Source of the DNA: Candidatus Bathyarchaeota archaeon
GTDB lineage: Archaea > Thermoproteota > Bathyarchaeia > Bathyarchaeales > DTEX01
DNA: 53,323 bases
Assembly: GCA_025059045.1 (NCBI GenBank)
Contig: JANXEA010000010.1
Coordinates: 1 to 53,323, forward strand
Reading direction: 5' to 3'
Position 1 is the first letter of the stretch; each line of letters starts with the position of its first letter. The notes beneath the pieces are model-generated. The model did no database searches. It was not told the DNA's origin and saw only the letters and a program-made list of their open reading frames with translations. Both the position numbers and the translations under genes were made by a program. Below, in pieces: positions 7,268 through 24,954 of the stretch.

Positions 7268-8326
7268 TTACATAGGCATCAGCAGTATGTCCGGTTCTTC
7301 GATTGACAGCCACTTCATAATCCATGGAAAGGCTTTGCAGCCGCTTACCTCATGACCACCATCGAATAAATCTAGGGCCAGTCTCTCCCCAACATTGAGG
7401 AGATGATAAGCTTTTTTCGTCTCCAAATAGGCCTTAAGCACCCCATTTATGGGAAAGATTGGATCATTAATGCCTGCCTCTATAAGTAAGGGTCTCGGCG
7501 CAATCAACGAGGCGATGTCGTAGATTTCTGCATACATCAACAATGCTGGCACATAGTTGCAGATGCAATGGTTCATTGCGAGTATACTATCGAAGAATGT
7601 GCAGAAAGACCCGCTTAGGACTGAAACCCTGATCCTTTCATCAATGGCCGAAGCATATAGTAATGTTGTTCCGCCAGCGGATAATCCCATCCCGCCTATT
7701 CTCCTCGCGTCAACCTCGCTTCTCTGCTGTAAATAATCTATTATTTTCATCACGTCCCATACTCTAAACCCGACCATAGAGGATCCGAGCATAAAAGCCC
7801 AGACGGTCGCTAGATGGCAAGAGTTATTCCTCCTTCCCTTCCTAACATCTTCAACATTTCTTCTCTCCCCAAATGCAAACTGGTCTGGAACCGCAACTAA
7901 AAGACCCATCCTAACAAGTTGAACCGCAAAATCTTTATAGATGCCCTCGGGGCTGTCCCGGAATTTTCCTTCCTCCGTTATGCCCGAAATCTCATCTTTT
8001 CCATATCCGTGGCCATGGAGCGCGATGACAGCTGGAGCCTTGCCATTAATATTCTCGGGTATGAGGATGTAGAGGGGCGCCCATAAATGAGGTCTCGTCT
8101 CAATGAGTACTTTCTGCATAAGAAAACCTGGGCGGCTTACCTCCGAAACAACTTTGAAGTTAATCTTGAATCCTTCGGGGAGATTTAGAAGCTCCGCTAA
8201 CTTACATCTAAGTTTTGGCCTCCAAAGCAACCACTCCTCGATGTCTGACGCTTGAAAACCGAGGGTTCTAGTTTGCTTCTTGTAGATGCTTCTAAAATAT
8301 GATTGAGGCTGGAGCAGTCTTTTCAT
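7268..8326 (-). CDS. Alpha/beta hydrolase, esterase or dienelactone hydrolase type
   Basis: The 352-residue protein carries a complete catalytic triad in family order: nucleophile Ser216 in GGMGLSAGG, Asp288 in AGINDPIFP and His325 in DGGHEVSG. An oxyanion-hole segment ALHGHGYGKDE sits near residue 105. This layout is that of large abhydrolases related to acetyl xylan esterases and dienelactone hydrolases. There is no signal peptide, so it acts in the cytoplasm. The long N-terminal region resembles the extended forms found with carbohydrate-degradation genes. It is monocistronic here. Deacetylation of sugar oligomers is plausible given the PL11 and GH4 genes in the window, but the substrate is not shown by the sequence. 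Confidence 0.8.
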   Translation of the reverse strand: MKRLLQPQSYFRSIYKKQTRTLGFQASDIEEWLLWRPKLRCKLAELLNLPEGFKINFKVVSEVSRPGFLMQKVLIETRPHLWAPLYILIPENINGKAPAVIALHGHGYGKDEISGITEEGKFRDSPEGIYKDFAVQLVRMGLLVAVPDQFAFGERRNVEDVRKGRRNNSCHLATVWAFMLGSSMVGFRVWDVMKIIDYLQQRSEVDARRIGGMGLSAGGTTLLYASAIDERIRVSVLSGSFCTFFDSILAMNHCICNYVPALLMYAEIYDIASLIAPRPLLIEAGINDPIFPINGVLKAYLETKKAYHLLNVGERLALDLFDGGHEVSGCKAFPWIMKWLSIEEPDILLMPM

Positions 8327-8412: not shown

Positions 8413-9324
8413 TTATAATAATTCTATCTTATCATGAACAGTGGTCGCTCGTTCATAAATCCTCTTCTTAGATCCGAACCCCGACGGACCGACCTTTTCG
8501 ATTATGAACGAAGCGGCAGCGGATGCAACTGATGCACACCAGAGTATATCTTCTCCTCGAACATACTCAGCCAAGAAGGCTCCTATGAAAACATCGCCAG
8601 AGCCCGTAGTGTCAACGACTTTTCTAGGCTCCGCCGCTGGAACCAGATATGTTCTGTCATATAACCTCAGGATCGAGCCGCTTACTCCTCTAGTAACCAT
8701 GATAATTCTCACATCGGCATCGGAGAGTATATCTATTGACTTCTGCAAATCCGTTGTTCCTGTGATCGCTTCGGCTTCATCCTCAGATGCCTTAATTATG
8801 TCCGCCCCTCTAAAGGCTTCATATCCGAAGCGGCCCTCAAGATATACCTCGCCTCCTTGCATGAAGCTGCGTAGAAAGCCCTGCGGATCAACAGAGACAA
8901 TCATGCCCCTGCCCACAACTCTACGCAGCGCTGTAGACGATATTTCACCGGCTATGGGCGCAATGTGAAGGGCTCTTGCTTCAGAAACTGACTCTATTTC
9001 CTCATCTCTTATGACGGGACCTTTACATTTAAGGATTAGTCTTCTCATGCCAGTTTCGCTGTAGCAGAGTAGATATCTAGTAGTCGAATCCCCCTTTATT
9101 ATCTGGAGACTCGATAGGTCAATGCCACGCCTCTTCAACCATTGAATATACCGCTGAGGGAAATCCTCTCCTACCTTAGAAACCACTGAGACATTTGAGC
9201 CTAAGTTCTTGGCTGCGAGTGAGACATACGTGGCGGAGCCTCCTAGTCTGCGTCGCGCCCGCCAATTCTGCGGCAAAAATATATGGTCTATGGAGAAATT
9301 TCCGACGGTAACTATATCGAACAT
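8413..9324 (-). CDS. PfkB-family sugar or nucleoside kinase
   Basis: A ribokinase-fold kinase of 303 residues. The N-terminal RRLGGSATYVSLAAKNLG is the PfkB sugar-binding signature, and DTTGSGDVFIGAFLAEY near residue 240 holds the anion hole and catalytic Asp. It phosphorylates a sugar, sugar acid or nucleoside with ATP or ADP; the sequence does not specify which. It begins at ATG 9324 and is divergent from the eS26 gene. Relatives include 2-keto-3-deoxygluconate kinase, ribokinase and archaeal cytidine kinase. In this gene context KDG kinase would suit uronate or pectin use, which is inference only. Confidence 0.87.
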   Translation of the reverse strand: MFDIVTVGNFSIDHIFLPQNWRARRRLGGSATYVSLAAKNLGSNVSVVSKVGEDFPQRYIQWLKRRGIDLSSLQIIKGDSTTRYLLCYSETGMRRLILKCKGPVIRDEEIESVSEARALHIAPIAGEISSTALRRVVGRGMIVSVDPQGFLRSFMQGGEVYLEGRFGYEAFRGADIIKASEDEAEAITGTTDLQKSIDILSDADVRIIMVTRGVSGSILRLYDRTYLVPAAEPRKVVDTTGSGDVFIGAFLAEYVRGEDILWCASVASAAASFIIEKVGPSGFGSKKRIYERATTVHDKIELL

Positions 9325-11293: not shown

Positions 11294-13072
11294 TCAGCTG
11301 GAATAATAGTATTGACCAATACTTTTTTGGTGCCTATCAAGTTTTGAGCCTTCCTTGTTAACTCTAGGCCGTTTTGTGGAGGGATCTCTGCGGAAAGTTA
11401 TGTCCATATCCCTTAGGAATCTATTCATTCCGTCAAGCATAGTAGTGGGCGATTCGGCTATCCCCTTAACCCCAGGTTCACCCTTAAATATCATTAGGCG
11501 GTCCGCGAGGAAGTCCTGTGCAACCACGTCGTGCTCGACGACGAATGCTGTGACGTTTCTATCTTCCACTATCCTTCTAACAGTTCTCGCCATCGCTAAT
11601 CTCTCTTCAACGTCTAGATACGCGCTAGGCTCATCCAGCAAGTACAAGTCTGCCTTTCGCGAAAGGCATACGCCTATGGCTACCCTCTGCAGTTCCCCGC
11701 CGCTCAGCTCCTTCACAGAATGATCCAGCAGGAAACCAATGTTGAGTGGTTGCAAGATCTCCGTCTGGAACCAGCTCGTGTTGAACTCCTCTTTCGCAAT
11801 ATCCCTCATCAAATCTTCAACCGTCCCCTCATAGTCGGAGGAGATATATTGGGGCTTATAGCTCACGCTCAATTTATTCTCCAACGGGGACGTGCCTAAG
11901 TTAGGCTTCTCCAGTCCAGCCAGAAGCTTAACAAAAGTTGTCTTTCCAATTCCATTTGGCCCAAGGATTCCGATAACCTCTCCTTGCCTAGCCTCTCCAG
12001 GCTCAACCTCCAATACAAATCCTTCATAGATCTTTCGCATCCTCCCCCATTTTAATAGGATGCCGCCCGCGGAAACAGATGATGAGGGAGGCTTAACCCT
12101 GAATCGTATAGGCTCTTTCCTAAAGAGGATGTTTTCATCTGGAATGAATCCGTCAAGATAAATGTTGATTCCAATTCTCACTCCGTGGATGTTAGAGACT
12201 ATGCCGTAGGCCCCGGGTTTCCCATAGAATAGGCAGACATAATCTGAAAGATAGTCTAGGACGGCTAGATCATGCTCAGCTACGACGATCATCTTATTCT
12301 CTTCTTTAAGGCTCCTGATCGCCTTCGCCGCCTCAAGCCTCTGTTTCACGTCCAGATAGCTTGATGGTTCATCGAAGAGGTATATGTCCGCCTCTCTGCA
12401 GATGGCTGCTGCGATTGCAACTCTCTGTAACTCGCCCCCGCTTAAAACATCGATCGGCCTATCCCATATCACGTCCAGCTGAAGTCTCTTTGAGATCTCT
12501 GAAAGCACGTCTCTCTCATCTATTCTCTCTAGTAGGTCGGAGACTTTTCCGCCAACAACCCTTGGTATTTTATCGACATATTGGGGTTTGTGAACAACCC
12601 TTACTCCTCCATTACTCATCTTTTGAAAGTAATTTTGCAGGACTGAGCCTCGAAAATACTGGATTATCTCCTCCCAGCTGGGCGCTGCTTCTGGATTGCC
12701 TAGATTGAGTTTCAGTTCGCCGGAAAGTATCCTGATCGCTGTCGATTTTCCAATTCCGTTCTGTCCAAGCAACCCGACGACTTGACCTGGTAATGGTGTG
12801 GGCAGACGAAAAAGTTTGAAGGCGTTTGGTCCGAAGCAATGCGTGACTTCACCTTTTAGTTCATCAGGGAGATTAACTATGGTGATGGCTTTGAATGGGC
12901 ATTTCTTAACGCAGATGCCGCATCCAGTGCAGAGAGTCTCGGAGATTAAGGGCTTTCCATCCTCGATGCGTACTGCTTCAATCCTGCTTCTCACCATTGG
13001 GCAAAAACTATGGCAAACATGATTACAGCGTTGCGGTTTACACTTATCCCTGTCAATTATCGCGATTCTCAA
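11294..13072 (-). CDS. rli1: Ribosome recycling ATPase ABCE1 (RNase L inhibitor homologue)
   Basis: Splits post-termination ribosomes together with aRF1/Pelota. The 592-residue chain has two N-terminal [4Fe-4S] clusters: one built on CKPQRC, CHSFCP and nearby cysteines, the other on CTGCGICVKKCPF. Two ABC ATPase domains follow, with Walker A motifs GLLGQNGIGKS and GILGPNGIGKT. The signatures are LSGGELQRVAIAAAI and LSGGELQRVAIGVCL, and the Walker B motifs are DIYLFDEPSSYLD and DLYLLDEPSAYLD. The hinge regions typical of ABCE1 are present, so the call is firm. It starts with a TTG at 13072 and appears monocistronic. Confidence 0.97.
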   Translation of the reverse strand: MRIAIIDRDKCKPQRCNHVCHSFCPMVRSRIEAVRIEDGKPLISETLCTGCGICVKKCPFKAITIVNLPDELKGEVTHCFGPNAFKLFRLPTPLPGQVVGLLGQNGIGKSTAIRILSGELKLNLGNPEAAPSWEEIIQYFRGSVLQNYFQKMSNGGVRVVHKPQYVDKIPRVVGGKVSDLLERIDERDVLSEISKRLQLDVIWDRPIDVLSGGELQRVAIAAAICREADIYLFDEPSSYLDVKQRLEAAKAIRSLKEENKMIVVAEHDLAVLDYLSDYVCLFYGKPGAYGIVSNIHGVRIGINIYLDGFIPDENILFRKEPIRFRVKPPSSSVSAGGILLKWGRMRKIYEGFVLEVEPGEARQGEVIGILGPNGIGKTTFVKLLAGLEKPNLGTSPLENKLSVSYKPQYISSDYEGTVEDLMRDIAKEEFNTSWFQTEILQPLNIGFLLDHSVKELSGGELQRVAIGVCLSRKADLYLLDEPSAYLDVEERLAMARTVRRIVEDRNVTAFVVEHDVVAQDFLADRLMIFKGEPGVKGIAESPTTMLDGMNRFLRDMDITFRRDPSTKRPRVNKEGSKLDRHQKSIGQYYYSS

Positions 13073-13155
13073 CTACCGTAACCTGCCAGAACTTTTTTGT
13101 CAGAGACGAACTAATAAACATGTTCATCGCCGACTAAAAAGTAGAGGGTAAAATA

Positions 13156-13165
13156 GTATAAATAT
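13156..13165 (+). promoter_or_regulatory. TATA box upstream of candidate sRNA
   Basis: GTATAAATAT centred at about 13160 predicts transcription from about 13186. The next protein gene starts at 13379 and has a separate AT-rich box at 13303-13320, so this promoter appears to serve the non-coding stretch between. Confidence 0.5.
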
Positions 13166-13185
13166 GGGGATTGGTAAAAAACTAT

Positions 13186-13255
13186 TTTGGGATGATGTGT
13201 GGCGACGGCGTGGAGCATAAGCTGTGACACATGTACCACTTTAACTGACCATAAA
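13186..13255 (+). ncRNA. Candidate C/D-box guide sRNA
   Basis: A C-box-like ATGATGT (13192-13198; consensus RTGATGA, one mismatch) and a perfect D box CTGA (13245-13248) span 57 bases, the usual size of archaeal methylation guides. GG directly before the C box can pair with CC directly after the D box, forming the closing stem of a kink-turn. A TATA box sits 26 bases upstream of the predicted 5' end. The internal boxes are weak: TGGA at 13211-13214 as D' and GTGACAC at 13224-13230 as C'. If these are right, guide sequences lie at 13199-13210 and 13231-13244. An alternative is a plain hairpin, since ATGTGT (13195-13200) can pair with ACACAT (13227-13232). Confidence 0.38.
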
Positions 13256-13302
13256 GGGAATTTTGTTTGCCAATTTACGCTTACTTATTATCCCTGCCTG
13301 CT

Positions 13303-13320
13303 CTTAAATAATTAAATATG
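13303..13320 (+). promoter_or_regulatory. AT-rich promoter of the THUMP gene
   Basis: Two overlapping TATA-like elements (CTTAAATA and TTAAATATG) lie 60-75 bases before ATG 13379 and would give a leader of about 40 bases. That leader carries the GGAGG ribosome site at 13363-13367. Confidence 0.4.
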
Positions 13321-13378
13321 ATCCGATCGTTAGATGTGAATACAAATAACTCATTTCGGTTTGGAGGAAAAATTTGAA

Positions 13379-13918
13379 ATGGCGCTCGATGAATTCAATC
13401 TTTTGGTTTCGACGCCGAGAGGACTGGAAAGCGATGCGTGTAGCGAGATCTGGTTTCTTCTGAGGGAGCTAGGCGATGAGGATCCTTTAGTCGAAAGAAG
13501 CGAGGTGGCGGGGCTTGTTGTTGCAAAGACAGCGTTGGACTCATTCAAAGTGATTGAGAACCTGAGGAAGAGACTTAGGGATAGGCCTCAAGATTTCCGT
13601 TACACGCTTAGATTTATACCCATAGAAATTGTGGTTCGAACAGATCTGGATCAGATCAGAAGGGCATGCTCACGGCTCGTTGAAAAGATAGGTCCAACCG
13701 AAACTTTTCGTGTAACAGTTGAGAAGAGGCACACTGATCTTCAGTCTGGAGAAATAATAAGAGCGGCCGCTGAAGTTATAGACCGGAAAGTCGACCTCGA
13801 AAATCCGCAGAAAATCCTCCTAATAGAAATACTGGGCCGGCTGACAGGGGTTTCGGTAATAGTCCCAGAAGATATTCTCTCAGTCTCGAAGGAGAGGGTC
13901 TCATCGCAGAGCCGCTAA
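13379..13918 (+). CDS. THUMP-domain protein, Tan1-like
   Basis: A 179-residue protein starting MALDEFNLLVSTPRGLES. The N-terminal half is ferredoxin-like. The second half is a THUMP domain ending in VEKRHTDLQSGEIIRAAAEV and a strand LIEILGRLTGVSVI, the tRNA-acceptor-binding fold. The overall layout matches Tan1, the adaptor for N4-acetylcytidine formation at tRNA position 12. No catalytic domain is attached, as in Tan1. The open frame extends to TTG 13361, but GGAGG at 13363-13367 lies inside that extension and 11 bases before ATG 13379, so I take the ATG. It runs 18 bases into the convergent Cgi121 gene. Other THUMP adaptors are possible. Confidence 0.8.
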   Translation: MALDEFNLLVSTPRGLESDACSEIWFLLRELGDEDPLVERSEVAGLVVAKTALDSFKVIENLRKRLRDRPQDFRYTLRFIPIEIVVRTDLDQIRRACSRLVEKIGPTETFRVTVEKRHTDLQSGEIIRAAAEVIDRKVDLENPQKILLIEILGRLTGVSVIVPEDILSVSKERVSSQSR

Positions 13919-14458
13919 TATAGCGATGTGCTCTATAATCAAATTTTTCAGCGCCTCTTCTTTTGTTGTCCTCAAGGCGGACTGAATCTCATCGTCGCTT
14001 ATGTTGAAAATCTTCTTAATGTTGTCGTATTTGTCTTCTGTCAATTCGATTACGCTTCCAGATCTTTCGCCACCTAGTAATTTCGATAGGAGGCCAAGGG
14101 TTTCCAATGCCCTTTCACGGCTTTTTGAGATTACCATGACAGCGACCCGTGAAGTTTCTTTTGTGACGCCCAAAATTTCTATTGCGCGGCTTATCTGCCG
14201 CTGAGCAGAGGCAAATACAAGAGTCTCAACTGAAATGTTCTTCGAAATTCTTCTTCCCGTCTCAATGTTTCTTAATGCGTTTAAGAATGCAAAGCGCAGA
14301 TGATCCGCTCCTGCGATTAAGTCAGCATTAAAAAATTGTACGTAGCATTCTTTCGAATTCTTGCTTACCTGGTTAAATAATGCGTTTGGGTCGCTTACAT
14401 TAACGTTCTTGAAGCCCTCGATTAGAATGTGCCAATCAGAGAATTTCGCTTCCTCCAA
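13901..14458 (-). CDS. cgi121: KEOPS complex subunit Cgi121
   Basis: KEOPS makes the universal t6A37 modification in ANN-decoding tRNAs, and Cgi121 binds the tRNA 3' end and the Bud32 kinase. The 185-residue protein carries the family core: QFFNADLIAGADHLRFAFLN followed by RISKNISVETLVFASAQRQISRAIEILGV-type sequence in the middle third. The C-terminal EEALKNLIIEHIAILAAL helix is the segment known to contact Bud32. It is somewhat longer than the usual 150 residues because of an N-terminal extension. It overlaps the upstream phosphoribosyltransferase gene by 23 bases, indicating cotranscription and probable translational coupling. No other KEOPS subunit is in the window. Confidence 0.85.
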   Translation of the reverse strand: MEEAKFSDWHILIEGFKNVNVSDPNALFNQVSKNSKECYVQFFNADLIAGADHLRFAFLNALRNIETGRRISKNISVETLVFASAQRQISRAIEILGVTKETSRVAVMVISKSRERALETLGLLSKLLGGERSGSVIELTEDKYDNIKKIFNISDDEIQSALRTTKEEALKNLIIEHIAILAALR

Positions 14459-15098
14459 ATTGCTCCTCCTCGATCACATCCCTTAGGAGGCGTTCCAGCA
14501 GCTCGGGCTTCATGCCCCCTTTTAGGAGCTCCTGCTTAAGCACATCGATTGGAAGACATTTTTCTCTACATTCCCTTAAAAGTTGCTTCACCGTCTCTTT
14601 TCTCTCCCATGGAAAGACAATCCATTTTCTCGTTTCCATCATGTAGTAGTCGGGTTTAATTATGCTCCAAGGTTTGTAGTAAATTGTCGCTGTTCTAACC
14701 TCTCTTGCGCCGCACTTAACAGCACGTTCCTTCACAAGTTTAAGGCTCCTTCCAGTATCAGCAACATCATCCATCAAGAGAACGCGGGACTCTTTCACTG
14801 GAACGGAGATAGGCTGCGTTATCACAGGCACCTCTCTCGTCTTACCTACTCCCTCATAAAACTCAACCTTGACATTGGCCAGTTCGGGATTGCCAAGAAG
14901 ATCAGACATTATTCTCGCAGGCGGCCAGCCTCCCCTTGAGATGCCGACAATTATATCTGGGCGGTAACGATCCTGCTTTATCTTGTCAGCCAGGCCAAGA
15001 AGCATATCATATATTTGGTCCCAGCTTGGCACCTCGAACTCGAAGGCTAACCTCAAATTAGTTTTTCCCCTATAAAATCGAGAATAACCTATTGTCAT
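14436..15098 (-). CDS. Phosphoribosyltransferase, xanthine/guanine type
   Basis: A type I phosphoribosyltransferase of 220 residues. The PRPP-binding loop is VLLMDDVADTGRSLKLV near residue 105, and a PPi loop GISRGGWPPARI lies near residue 50. Length and pattern match the archaeal xanthine-guanine PRTase-like family that salvages purine bases to nucleoside monophosphates. The last 45 residues (from about 170) are a helical, charged extension beyond the usual domain. Position upstream of Cgi121 and downstream of fau-1, with a 23-base overlap, places it in an RNA-biology operon, although purine salvage itself is metabolic. The exact base cannot be read from sequence. Confidence 0.85.
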   Translation of the reverse strand: MTIGYSRFYRGKTNLRLAFEFEVPSWDQIYDMLLGLADKIKQDRYRPDIIVGISRGGWPPARIMSDLLGNPELANVKVEFYEGVGKTREVPVITQPISVPVKESRVLLMDDVADTGRSLKLVKERAVKCGAREVRTATIYYKPWSIIKPDYYMMETRKWIVFPWERKETVKQLLRECREKCLPIDVLKQELLKGGMKPELLERLLRDVIEEEQFGGSEIL

Positions 15099-21572: not shown

Positions 21573-22721
21573 TCAAGGATTAGGCCTATTCCTTCGATAC
21601 TTCTTGCTTAGATTAATGAAGAGCTCAAAATTTTCTAGGCTCATCTCAACTGGTATGTCGCCTTCGGAGCCCAGTATGAATCCTCCGCCTGGAGAACCAA
21701 TTCTGAGTCTGTCAAGAAGATGCTCTCTCAATTCATCCGCTCCCATAAGCCCAATATTCTTGCTTAGACCGCCCAGTAGGCATAGCCTGTCTCCATAATC
21801 ATCCTTCAATGCTTGTAGGTTCATGTTGTCAGTGGGGCCTATAGGGTTCAAAACGTCCAATCCGGCTTTCACAAATAATGGGACCAAGCTATCGATTTTT
21901 CCATGGCTATGCATATTCACAAATGCGCCATACTTGTGGGCCAGTTCTATAGCCTTTACATGCCAGGGATAAATTATCTCTTCGTAAAGCTTTGGATTCA
22001 TGAACGGCCCCTGTCTATACCCTAGGTCATCGGGCCATCCTATCATCATTGCGCCCCTTTCAAGCAGATTCTTCTCAGCCTTCAAATTGAACTCGCCCAT
22101 TTTTGCGATCAGCTTCTTGAAGAACTCCCTTCGTTGATACATATCCCTGAGGGAGACTTCTAGTGGGCCTCTAAGAAAATACCAGACCCCCGAGAAGAAC
22201 CCGTTTATGTCACATGATGGGAAGAATCCTCTTTCAACAACATACTTTATGGCCTTTTCGATGCCTTCATATCTTGACGGGTCATCTGGGTCTGGAAGCT
22301 CTAGACTCTCTAAGTCATCCTCATTCTTTACCGGGTAATCTATATATTGGCGTGCCCATACGATTTTGGATGTTCCAACCCTCCATTTTGCCCCTGTCTC
22401 CCACTCTATAATATTCCATTCAGACCCCGTCTCAATCGTCCTCTTTATCCGGAACCCGCCGCCGCCAACCCATATTATAAAGTTATCCATAAACTCAGCT
22501 ATCTTCAATGCATCATCGATCTTCTTGAGGCCTGCCGCAGTTATTTCGCAGACTGCTCTACTAACCTCACTCTCAAGCTCCACACCCTTTGGAGGCATAG
22601 TTGTCTGTAAGAAGGGAACAAACTTCGCGCGCGCCATCTCGTTTGTGAAGCCGATCGATTGGGGTGTCACATGTGGTTCCTCATGAAGTATAGCGGATAA
22701 AACGCAATCAAATCTATTCAT
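21573..22721 (-). CDS. Uroporphyrinogen decarboxylase-family protein (methyltransferase-like)
   Basis: The 382-residue TIM-barrel protein belongs to the URO-D superfamily that includes the corrinoid:CoM methyltransferases MtaA/MtbA and bacterial O-demethylase components. The barrel segment GWPDDLGYRQGPFMNPKLYEEIIYP and the C-terminal GGGFILGSEGDIPVE match the methyltransferase-like branch rather than HemE. At the zinc site, where methyltransferases usually have HxC, this protein reads NMHSHGK with His271 and His273. A standard Cys ligand is therefore missing and the metal chemistry may differ. It is 106 bases upstream of the transketolase on the same strand. A methyl-transfer role with the corrinoid protein at 52769 is speculative. 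Confidence 0.82.
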   Translation of the reverse strand: MNRFDCVLSAILHEEPHVTPQSIGFTNEMARAKFVPFLQTTMPPKGVELESEVSRAVCEITAAGLKKIDDALKIAEFMDNFIIWVGGGGFRIKRTIETGSEWNIIEWETGAKWRVGTSKIVWARQYIDYPVKNEDDLESLELPDPDDPSRYEGIEKAIKYVVERGFFPSCDINGFFSGVWYFLRGPLEVSLRDMYQRREFFKKLIAKMGEFNLKAEKNLLERGAMMIGWPDDLGYRQGPFMNPKLYEEIIYPWHVKAIELAHKYGAFVNMHSHGKIDSLVPLFVKAGLDVLNPIGPTDNMNLQALKDDYGDRLCLLGGLSKNIGLMGADELREHLLDRLRIGSPGGGFILGSEGDIPVEMSLENFELFINLSKKYRRNRPNP

Positions 22722-22909: not shown

Positions 22910-24907
22910 TCAGAGCCGTTTCCTCATCCTTAAGATCACAGCCACGGAGACAGCGGAGACCGCAACAGCAGCTATAACTATCTCCATTAAAGGCAATGAT
23001 GGCCCATCAGGGCGGGTCTCAGGCTGGACTGCGCCTATATAGAAACTTGGCTGTGTAGCCTGCATGTATCCCATTGTCTCACATGCGACGCTTGTTCTGT
23101 AGTCTGAGTCATGCATCAGTGTCGTCATTCTAGTCTCAGCGGGAGTAGTAGTTATGTATATGATGAATTCCCTACTACCGCCATACCAGACTTCTTCACG
23201 CCAGTCTCCTAGGATGTCTCCGTAACCCATCGGGGCATTTCTTGATCCCACATCGCCTTTCGGAGCGGTAAAGATCGTATTCATTGCACCCCCGAGATAA
23301 TTCCACTTCGCGATCGTTGTAGCGTCCAAGTGCTCCCTCAAGAGATCTCCATCCCACCATATGGCGAAGTTGCAAACAGCGGGCCTCGTTCCTATGTTCT
23401 GCCCCTTAGCGTTGTAAAGATTGCCAACTGATGCCCAGCATTCCAGCCCGTAATGGCGTGGATCAATGTCAGCTGCCAACCCGCGTCCCACATCGGTATT
23501 TCTTGTCTCCCTTATTCCCCATATCAGCGATCCGTTTCGCGCATCTCTAAGGTGCATACCATAGTTTGGCGCTGCCTCCTGGACGTACCATATCTCTAGT
23601 CCTGGGCGTGTCGGGTCGATATCGGTCATGTGCATTCTGTCTCCATGCCCTTCACCTGTCTCCCACATGGTTGCACCGTTATGATCTACGGCGATGCTTC
23701 CATATACTATCTCGTCTTTTCCGTCACCGTCAATGTCGCCTACACGTATATTGTGAAATCCGCCGCCGCCTGAGGGCTTGTACCATCTCCAAACTTTTGT
23801 TAGCGTTCCGTTTCTCCAGTTCCACGCATCGATATACATTTTAGTGTATGTGCCGCGCATGATGAGGAGGCTTGGCATGTAACCATCTAAATAGGCGACG
23901 CCCATTAGGTGTCTATCGCAACGGTTTCCGTAACTATCGCCCCAGTCGCTTACGCTTCCCCGCTCAATCCAATTTTCCATTGCGAGTATGCGCCCAGTAA
24001 GCCCGTCGAGGATCACAAAGAATTCTGGGCCTTCCAAAGCTCTTCCTTCGGTATTCGCGTAGTTTGTTCTTCCATCACCGTTAACATCCCCTATCCTGAT
24101 AAGCTTGCCGTCTGAGGTGAGGATCTCAGCGCCCTCGCCAATCTTTGTTGCAACTTCAGCCCTTCCATCGCAGTCAAGATCAAAAACGATGAAGGGCGAG
24201 TACCATATTCCCGGCCTAATATTTGGTCCCAAATCGACTCTCCAAAGAAATGTGCCGTCCCTTAGATATCCCTCAAGCTTGTAGGTTTCGATTGGTGCAG
24301 TACTTTGTGAGGGGTCTATATCTTGATCACCCCTCTTTACCACGAAATCGTATTCCCCGTCCCCATCGAGGTCACCCACGCCAATCATGCGGGTTCCTTG
24401 AACTTGACCTTGAAAGTTCCTTGCATCTTGGCTTAGAGGAATAGAGATTGAGTTGCTTTTAATGACACTTGCTTCGGGGCTTGCCTCACGCTCAATGCCG
24501 CCTATTATTGGACGGACAAAGTAGGTTGGAGAGAGATCTATATTGACATTTGAATCTGTGAAATCCGTTGTGTTAACAATTGGTGCGCTGTTAACTTTTA
24601 TTACGCTTCCGTCGCTGGTCCTTCTATAAAGGTTGAATGCGATGTTTGAAGGATCTGTTCCTAAGAGGCGCCAGCTCACATAGACTTTTCCTCCACCCAA
24701 ATAGATCGCGATAAGCCCCCTTCCAAGCCTCTCCATGACGCGTGTGCTTGTGGATAAGGCGGAATCTGCAAGTATAATATTTATCAACCTGCCATTTTGA
24801 CTGGCTGTTAACCTCATTGTTGCAATCAAGTCGAGATTCAAGGTCAGAGCGATTAGAAGGCTGCATATCAATCCGCATACTTTCCCAGCAGATTTGTTTT
24901 TAGTCAT
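22910..24907 (-). CDS. Rhamnogalacturonan lyase, family PL11, secreted and membrane-anchored
   Basis: The 665-residue protein matches PL11 rhamnogalacturonan lyases (YesW/YesX type), which cleave pectin rhamnogalacturonan I by beta-elimination. A basic, hydrophobic N-terminus (residues 1-35) looks like a signal peptide. A fibronectin-like domain (IYLGGGKVYVSWRLLGTDP) precedes the beta-propeller with repeated calcium loops: GDLDGDGEYD, FDLDCDGRAE, GDVNGDGRTN and GDIDGDGKDE. Near the end a helix of about 20 hydrophobic residues followed by RMRKRL forms a C-terminal membrane anchor, the archaeal cell-surface style. A strong GGGGAG ribosome site (24912-24918) and a TATA box at 24947-24954 precede the ATG. 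It stands alone and was probably acquired from bacteria. Confidence 0.9.
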   Translation of the reverse strand: MTKNKSAGKVCGLICSLLIALTLNLDLIATMRLTASQNGRLINIILADSALSTSTRVMERLGRGLIAIYLGGGKVYVSWRLLGTDPSNIAFNLYRRTSDGSVIKVNSAPIVNTTDFTDSNVNIDLSPTYFVRPIIGGIEREASPEASVIKSNSISIPLSQDARNFQGQVQGTRMIGVGDLDGDGEYDFVVKRGDQDIDPSQSTAPIETYKLEGYLRDGTFLWRVDLGPNIRPGIWYSPFIVFDLDCDGRAEVATKIGEGAEILTSDGKLIRIGDVNGDGRTNYANTEGRALEGPEFFVILDGLTGRILAMENWIERGSVSDWGDSYGNRCDRHLMGVAYLDGYMPSLLIMRGTYTKMYIDAWNWRNGTLTKVWRWYKPSGGGGFHNIRVGDIDGDGKDEIVYGSIAVDHNGATMWETGEGHGDRMHMTDIDPTRPGLEIWYVQEAAPNYGMHLRDARNGSLIWGIRETRNTDVGRGLAADIDPRHYGLECWASVGNLYNAKGQNIGTRPAVCNFAIWWDGDLLREHLDATTIAKWNYLGGAMNTIFTAPKGDVGSRNAPMGYGDILGDWREEVWYGGSREFIIYITTTPAETRMTTLMHDSDYRTSVACETMGYMQATQPSFYIGAVQPETRPDGPSLPLMEIVIAAVAVSAVSVAVILRMRKRL

Positions 24908-24946
24908 TGAATCTCCCCTTCTGCATTACATTTTTCTAGTGATCTC

Positions 24947-24954
24947 TTAAAAAC
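24947..24954 (-). promoter_or_regulatory. TATA box of the rhamnogalacturonan lyase gene
   Basis: GTTTTTAA on the reverse strand predicts transcription from about 24925, just ahead of the GGGGAG ribosome site at 24912-24918. This gene thus has a short leader with a strong Shine-Dalgarno sequence, unlike the leaderless genes nearby. Confidence 0.45.

Follow-up and report, generated by a model that had tools for sequence, protein, structure and literature searches.

The locus described here raises the question of whether a non-halophilic archaeon of the phylum Thermoproteota could take part in the breakdown of pectin, a process usually credited to bacteria and fungi. The window, i.e., the whole 53,323-nt stretch of DNA that was analyzed, carries a gene for a putative rhamnogalacturonan lyase (Table 1), whose interval is filled by exactly one minus-strand ORF of 665 codons plus a stop, the plus strand being rich in stops. 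The ATG is the sole possible start, since the upstream reading frame meets a stop seven codons before it, with no start codon between. The Shine-Dalgarno-like sequence and the putative promoter, taken in the initial annotation as marks of an imported gene, are both uninformative on import.

Table 1. Features of the lyase gene and its product (window coordinates; residues are those of the 665-aa protein).
Feature	Position	Strand	Basis and remarks
PL11 rhamnogalacturonan lyase ORF	22910..24907	-	665 aa, ATG at 24907
Archaeal TATA-like TTTTTAAG	24946..24953	-	About 40 bases upstream of the ATG; by eye, putative
Shine-Dalgarno-like GGGGAG	24913..24918	-	5 nt from the ATG; sequence
Signal-peptide-like N-terminus, residues 1-30 (hydrophobic core 10-28)	24818..24907	-	Hydropathy
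RGI_lyase beta-sheet domain, residues 56-148	24464..24742	-	Pfam PF18370
RGL11_C beta-propeller domain, residues 174-626	23030..24388	-	Pfam PF21348; AlphaFold model and Foldseek
EF-hand-like calcium loop DVNGDGRTNYAN, residues 274-285	24053..24088	-	Alignment
C-terminal transmembrane helix, residues 640-658	22934..22990	-	Hydropathy 2.54
Basic C-terminal tail LRMRKRL, residues 659-665	22913..22933	-	Sequence

The assignment of the ORF to family PL11, proposed earlier from the sequence, is borne out by Pfam, with both domains above their curated cut-offs (RGL11_C, 484 bits against 27; RGI_lyase, 72.5 bits against 27.8) and additional matches to FG-GAP repeats. Three PL11 chains of the PDB match the protein at 1e-125 to 1e-147 (YesW/4CAG, E~1e-147). 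An AlphaFold2 model built from 21 sequences (mean pLDDT 81, pTM 0.82) contains an eight-bladed propeller and an N-terminal beta domain, and its top four Foldseek matches are the PL11 structures 2z8r, 2zux, 2zuy, and 4cag. Superposition on YesW, the PL11 endo-rhamnogalacturonan lyase of Bacillus subtilis (2z8r), gives a TM-score of 0.91 normalised by YesW, with a Foldseek value of 7.8e-64 and 44% identity in the structural alignment. Judged by its sequence and modelled fold, the protein is a true and quite ordinary PL11 rhamnogalacturonan lyase, sharing with YesW the two domains, the fold and the calcium residues; unlike it, YesW lacks a C-terminal membrane anchor. The segment bearing the EF-hand-like loop is eight residues longer than in YesW, and it is lengthened in all four Thermoproteota copies described below.

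The gene is surrounded on the same contig by genes for archaeal TFB, eS8, class I (archaeal-type) LysRS, nondiscriminating AspRS, ATCase subunits, and triose-phosphate isomerase, in agreement with the archaeal host proposed initially. For the 1.4-Mb draft genome, completeness is estimated at 98% and contamination at 0.37%. Relative to 328 kb of genome stretches, codon use and GC3 of the gene lie at the 36th and 59th percentiles of the genome, and its GC content is in the genome's range. A bacterial contaminant or a misassembly of the metagenome bin might be suspected from the 27 contigs of the draft and from the finding, in a search of all 257 genomes of the class, that only this one carries a full PL11. 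However, TFB, eS8, LysRS, and ATCase genes lie on both sides of the lyase within a single 53-kb contig, codon use is ordinary, the contamination estimate is low, a second anchored PL11, 64% identical to the window copy, is encoded on another contig (C4), and the PL11 clade is common to an independent genome of the phylum. Such an artifact is therefore extremely improbable.

That independent genome (G368) belongs to another family, tentatively Thermofilaceae. When 398 genomes evenly sampled from the phylum were searched, it was the only further one with PL11, and a search centered on it gave no PL11 in the 97 other genomes covered. It encodes two PL11s with about 52% identity to the window copy, one likewise anchored and the other lacking a signal and carrying an insertion like that of the lyase YesX. 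In a careful tree of 37 sequences the four Thermoproteota PL11s form one clade (99/99), within which the two proteins of each genome are sisters (98/96 and 100/99), and a quick tree of 55 sequences agrees with the four-copy clade. The nearest bacterial sequence by identity (48%) is that of Armatimonadetes SKYB128 (L019), which has no anchor; Armatimonadetes were considered as a donor, and the sister placement to the archaeal clade is unsupported (AU p 0.03).

The earlier statement that PL11 enzymes are known mainly from bacteria and fungi does not hold, because PL11s are annotated in public records of haloarchaeal plasmids (Haloterrigena turkmenica pHTUR01, Halocatena, Halopiger, and others), and a haloarchaeal PL11 has been reported in a publication that describes archaeal polysaccharide lyases as almost unknown (PMC9726719). 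These proteins are archaeal like the window PL11, but they are 38-43% identical to it, lack a C-terminal transmembrane helix and form a separate branch near sequences of Bacteroidota, Bacillota, and Actinomycetota. A shared origin of the two archaeal groups was rejected when their joint grouping was forced (AU p=6e-10). The PL11 family appears to have entered archaea at least twice, and one of these archaeal groups carries a membrane anchor in the style of its host. Of the proposal that the gene was imported, a recent transfer is rejected and an old one is left, since codon use and GC3 are ordinary, the duplication took place within the lineage and the clade is shared with G368. A search of the open-access literature found no account of a PL11 from an archaeon that is not a halophile. 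The enzyme family and archaeal PL11s as such are already known, and it is the non-halophilic branch and its membrane anchor that look new; these, together with the surrounding gene set, are the less ordinary points of this locus.

The two hydrophobic ends foreseen in the initial annotation are both present: hydropathy reaches 2.22 over the core of the signal-peptide-like start, and the C-terminal helix is followed by the basic tail. The helix is separated from the propeller by only about 12 residues, and the C-terminal tail is of low confidence in the AlphaFold model. Hydrophobic ends are arranged in the same way in the paralog encoded on contig C4. The view that the anchor is an archaeal addition likewise stands, as a C-terminal transmembrane helix is found in three of the four Thermoproteota copies vs. 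none of 91 bacterial or haloarchaeal homologues. In the anchored copy of G368, the helix follows a long Ser/Thr-rich linker, and the tail looks, by eye, like the one on a further exported ORF within the locus. Each host may thus have fitted its own type of anchor; it is just as possible that the common ancestor already had one anchor, which the cytosolic G368 copy then lost. The hydrophobic ends suggest that the window lyase would leave the cytoplasm via the Sec pathway and remain fixed on the outside through the C-terminal helix, so that it appears to be tethered on the cell surface.

Calcium ligands and cleft residues have been named for two Bacteroides PL11s (PMC8787155), and were placed on YesW by spacing and then on the window protein by alignment. 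The calcium ligands His385, His421, Asp423, and Glu444 and the cleft residues Arg475 and Tyr614 are kept, and the cleft lysine, Lys498 of YesW, corresponds to Arg556, a pairing that is approximate because the column sits in a gappy stretch. This column, in which just 22 of the 34 other rows have Lys, varies also in bacteria and is not family-defining. Among 119 columns at least 93% conserved across bacterial and haloarchaeal homologues, the window protein keeps 109. The 10 changed columns include Tyr91 to Ser153 and Arg526 to Ile582 (YesW to window), both unchanged in the paralog; together with the replaced lysine, they could point to a catalytically weak or inactive propeller retained as a surface glycan-binding protein. 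With the great majority of conserved columns and all six other named residues retained, we consider this very unlikely and favor an active, calcium-dependent lyase. The exo-lyase YesX, whose exo action we take to result from a cleft-blocking inserted loop, carries an insertion after the VWG motif, at the cleft. This insertion is absent from the window protein, as it is from the endo-lyase YesW, and endo-type action is therefore the better guess.

Genes that could serve the later steps of rhamnogalacturonan use are present in the host genome, and the window lyase stands alone, apart from them. They comprise GH28, located beside an aIF5B-like gene; GH78, which shares one island with a GH2 beta-galactosidase, a GH29 fucosidase, and GH31; three GH106 genes on three contigs; a PL22-type oligogalacturonate lyase protein and KduI; and a cluster of KDPG aldolase, a KDG-kinase-like PfkB protein, and an SDR. 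The match to RhaA is weak. A search of the host genome for the unsaturated rhamnogalacturonyl hydrolases GH88/GH105 found none, and one usual step is therefore missing unless another enzyme performs it. Together with the second PL11, this nearly complete set makes use of rhamnogalacturonan by the host credible. Gene content is no proof of use, because haloarchaeal strains with PL11 genes failed to grow on rhamnogalacturonan (PMC9726719).

We consider it probable that an anchored, endo-type PL11 cuts rhamnogalacturonan I outside the cell of this archaeon and that the fragments are finished inside. The tethered lyase would cleave the rhamnose-galacturonate backbone by beta-elimination, and the fragments would be taken up into the cell, where GH78 and GH106 rhamnosidases, GH28 and the PL22-type lyase, and then KduI, KDG kinase, and KDPG aldolase, could complete their breakdown. 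The natural substrate of a working PL11-type lyase might instead be a different rhamnose-uronate polymer, for instance an exopolysaccharide made by microbes, and not plant pectin. This would fit the absence of GH88/105, the GH2, GH29, and GH31 genes of the GH78 island, which are compatible with other rhamnose-rich glycans, and the alteration in all four Thermoproteota copies of YesW Thr198 and Gln323, near-invariant elsewhere. The genes for GH28, the PL22-type lyase, KduI, and KDPG aldolase, however, indicate galacturonate, and the named cleft residues are retained, so that we regard a substrate other than pectin as rather unlikely. A genome of this size with two tethered lyases, rhamnosidases, and a uronate route would make a non-halophilic archaeon a candidate pectin degrader, and the tethered lyases are good biochemical targets.

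The PL11 genes of G368 are placed differently: its anchored copy shares one locus with GH28 and Opp-type permeases, and its cytosolic copy (L102:8679-10541, minus strand) is accompanied by GH106 and permeases, the permeases in both cases being recognized by eye. In the cytosolic protein the insertion lies at the site of the YesX loop, and Gln replaces the cleft Arg. The pair of anchored and cytosolic proteins resembles that of Bacillus, which consists of a secreted endo-lyase and an intracellular exo-lyase.

Another signal-less protein, of 612 aa, is encoded on contig C5 of the host genome (G000; L018:8116-9954, plus strand). It has a weak RGL11_C match (47.6 bits) and is 47% identical to a 643-aa protein of G368 (L103:4381-6312, minus strand), whose gene adjoins GH28 and has transport genes nearby. 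These two proteins possibly represent a new family of PL11-like enzymes. A relative of the 612-aa protein from the same archaeal family (G010 contig C16:1149-2761; L146, L149) is split and was read through a TGA, and is perhaps a decaying gene. One may speculate that non-halophilic Thermoproteota of distant families possess a rhamnogalacturonan gene set of their own, with surface-anchored PL11s outside and, inside, the signal-less propellers of 612 aa (host) and 643 aa (G368) replacing GH105 on imported unsaturated oligosaccharides; we hold this to be distinctly unlikely.

Proteins of the URO-D superfamily recur beside glycan-degradation genes. One is encoded in the window at 21573-22721 on the minus strand, 188 bp downstream of the PL11 gene and in the same orientation, and three others at L140:4951-6114, 12418-13569, and 13647-14720; the window protein and the first of the latter were identified by Pfam, and the remaining two by eye. 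The same locus (L140:6116-8807, minus strand) encodes a RuBisCO-like protein and a kinase of the four-carbon-acid-sugar type, with a best match to OiaK under its cut-off, near the GH78 rhamnosidase, an arrangement that suggests an acid-sugar route. Elsewhere in the window, an Abhydrolase_7 esterase and a PfkB sugar kinase are encoded side by side on the minus strand (7268-8326 and 8413-9324); the esterase has weak matches to glucuronoyl and acetyl-xylan esterases, and the pair may possibly represent further genes for the use of plant polymers.
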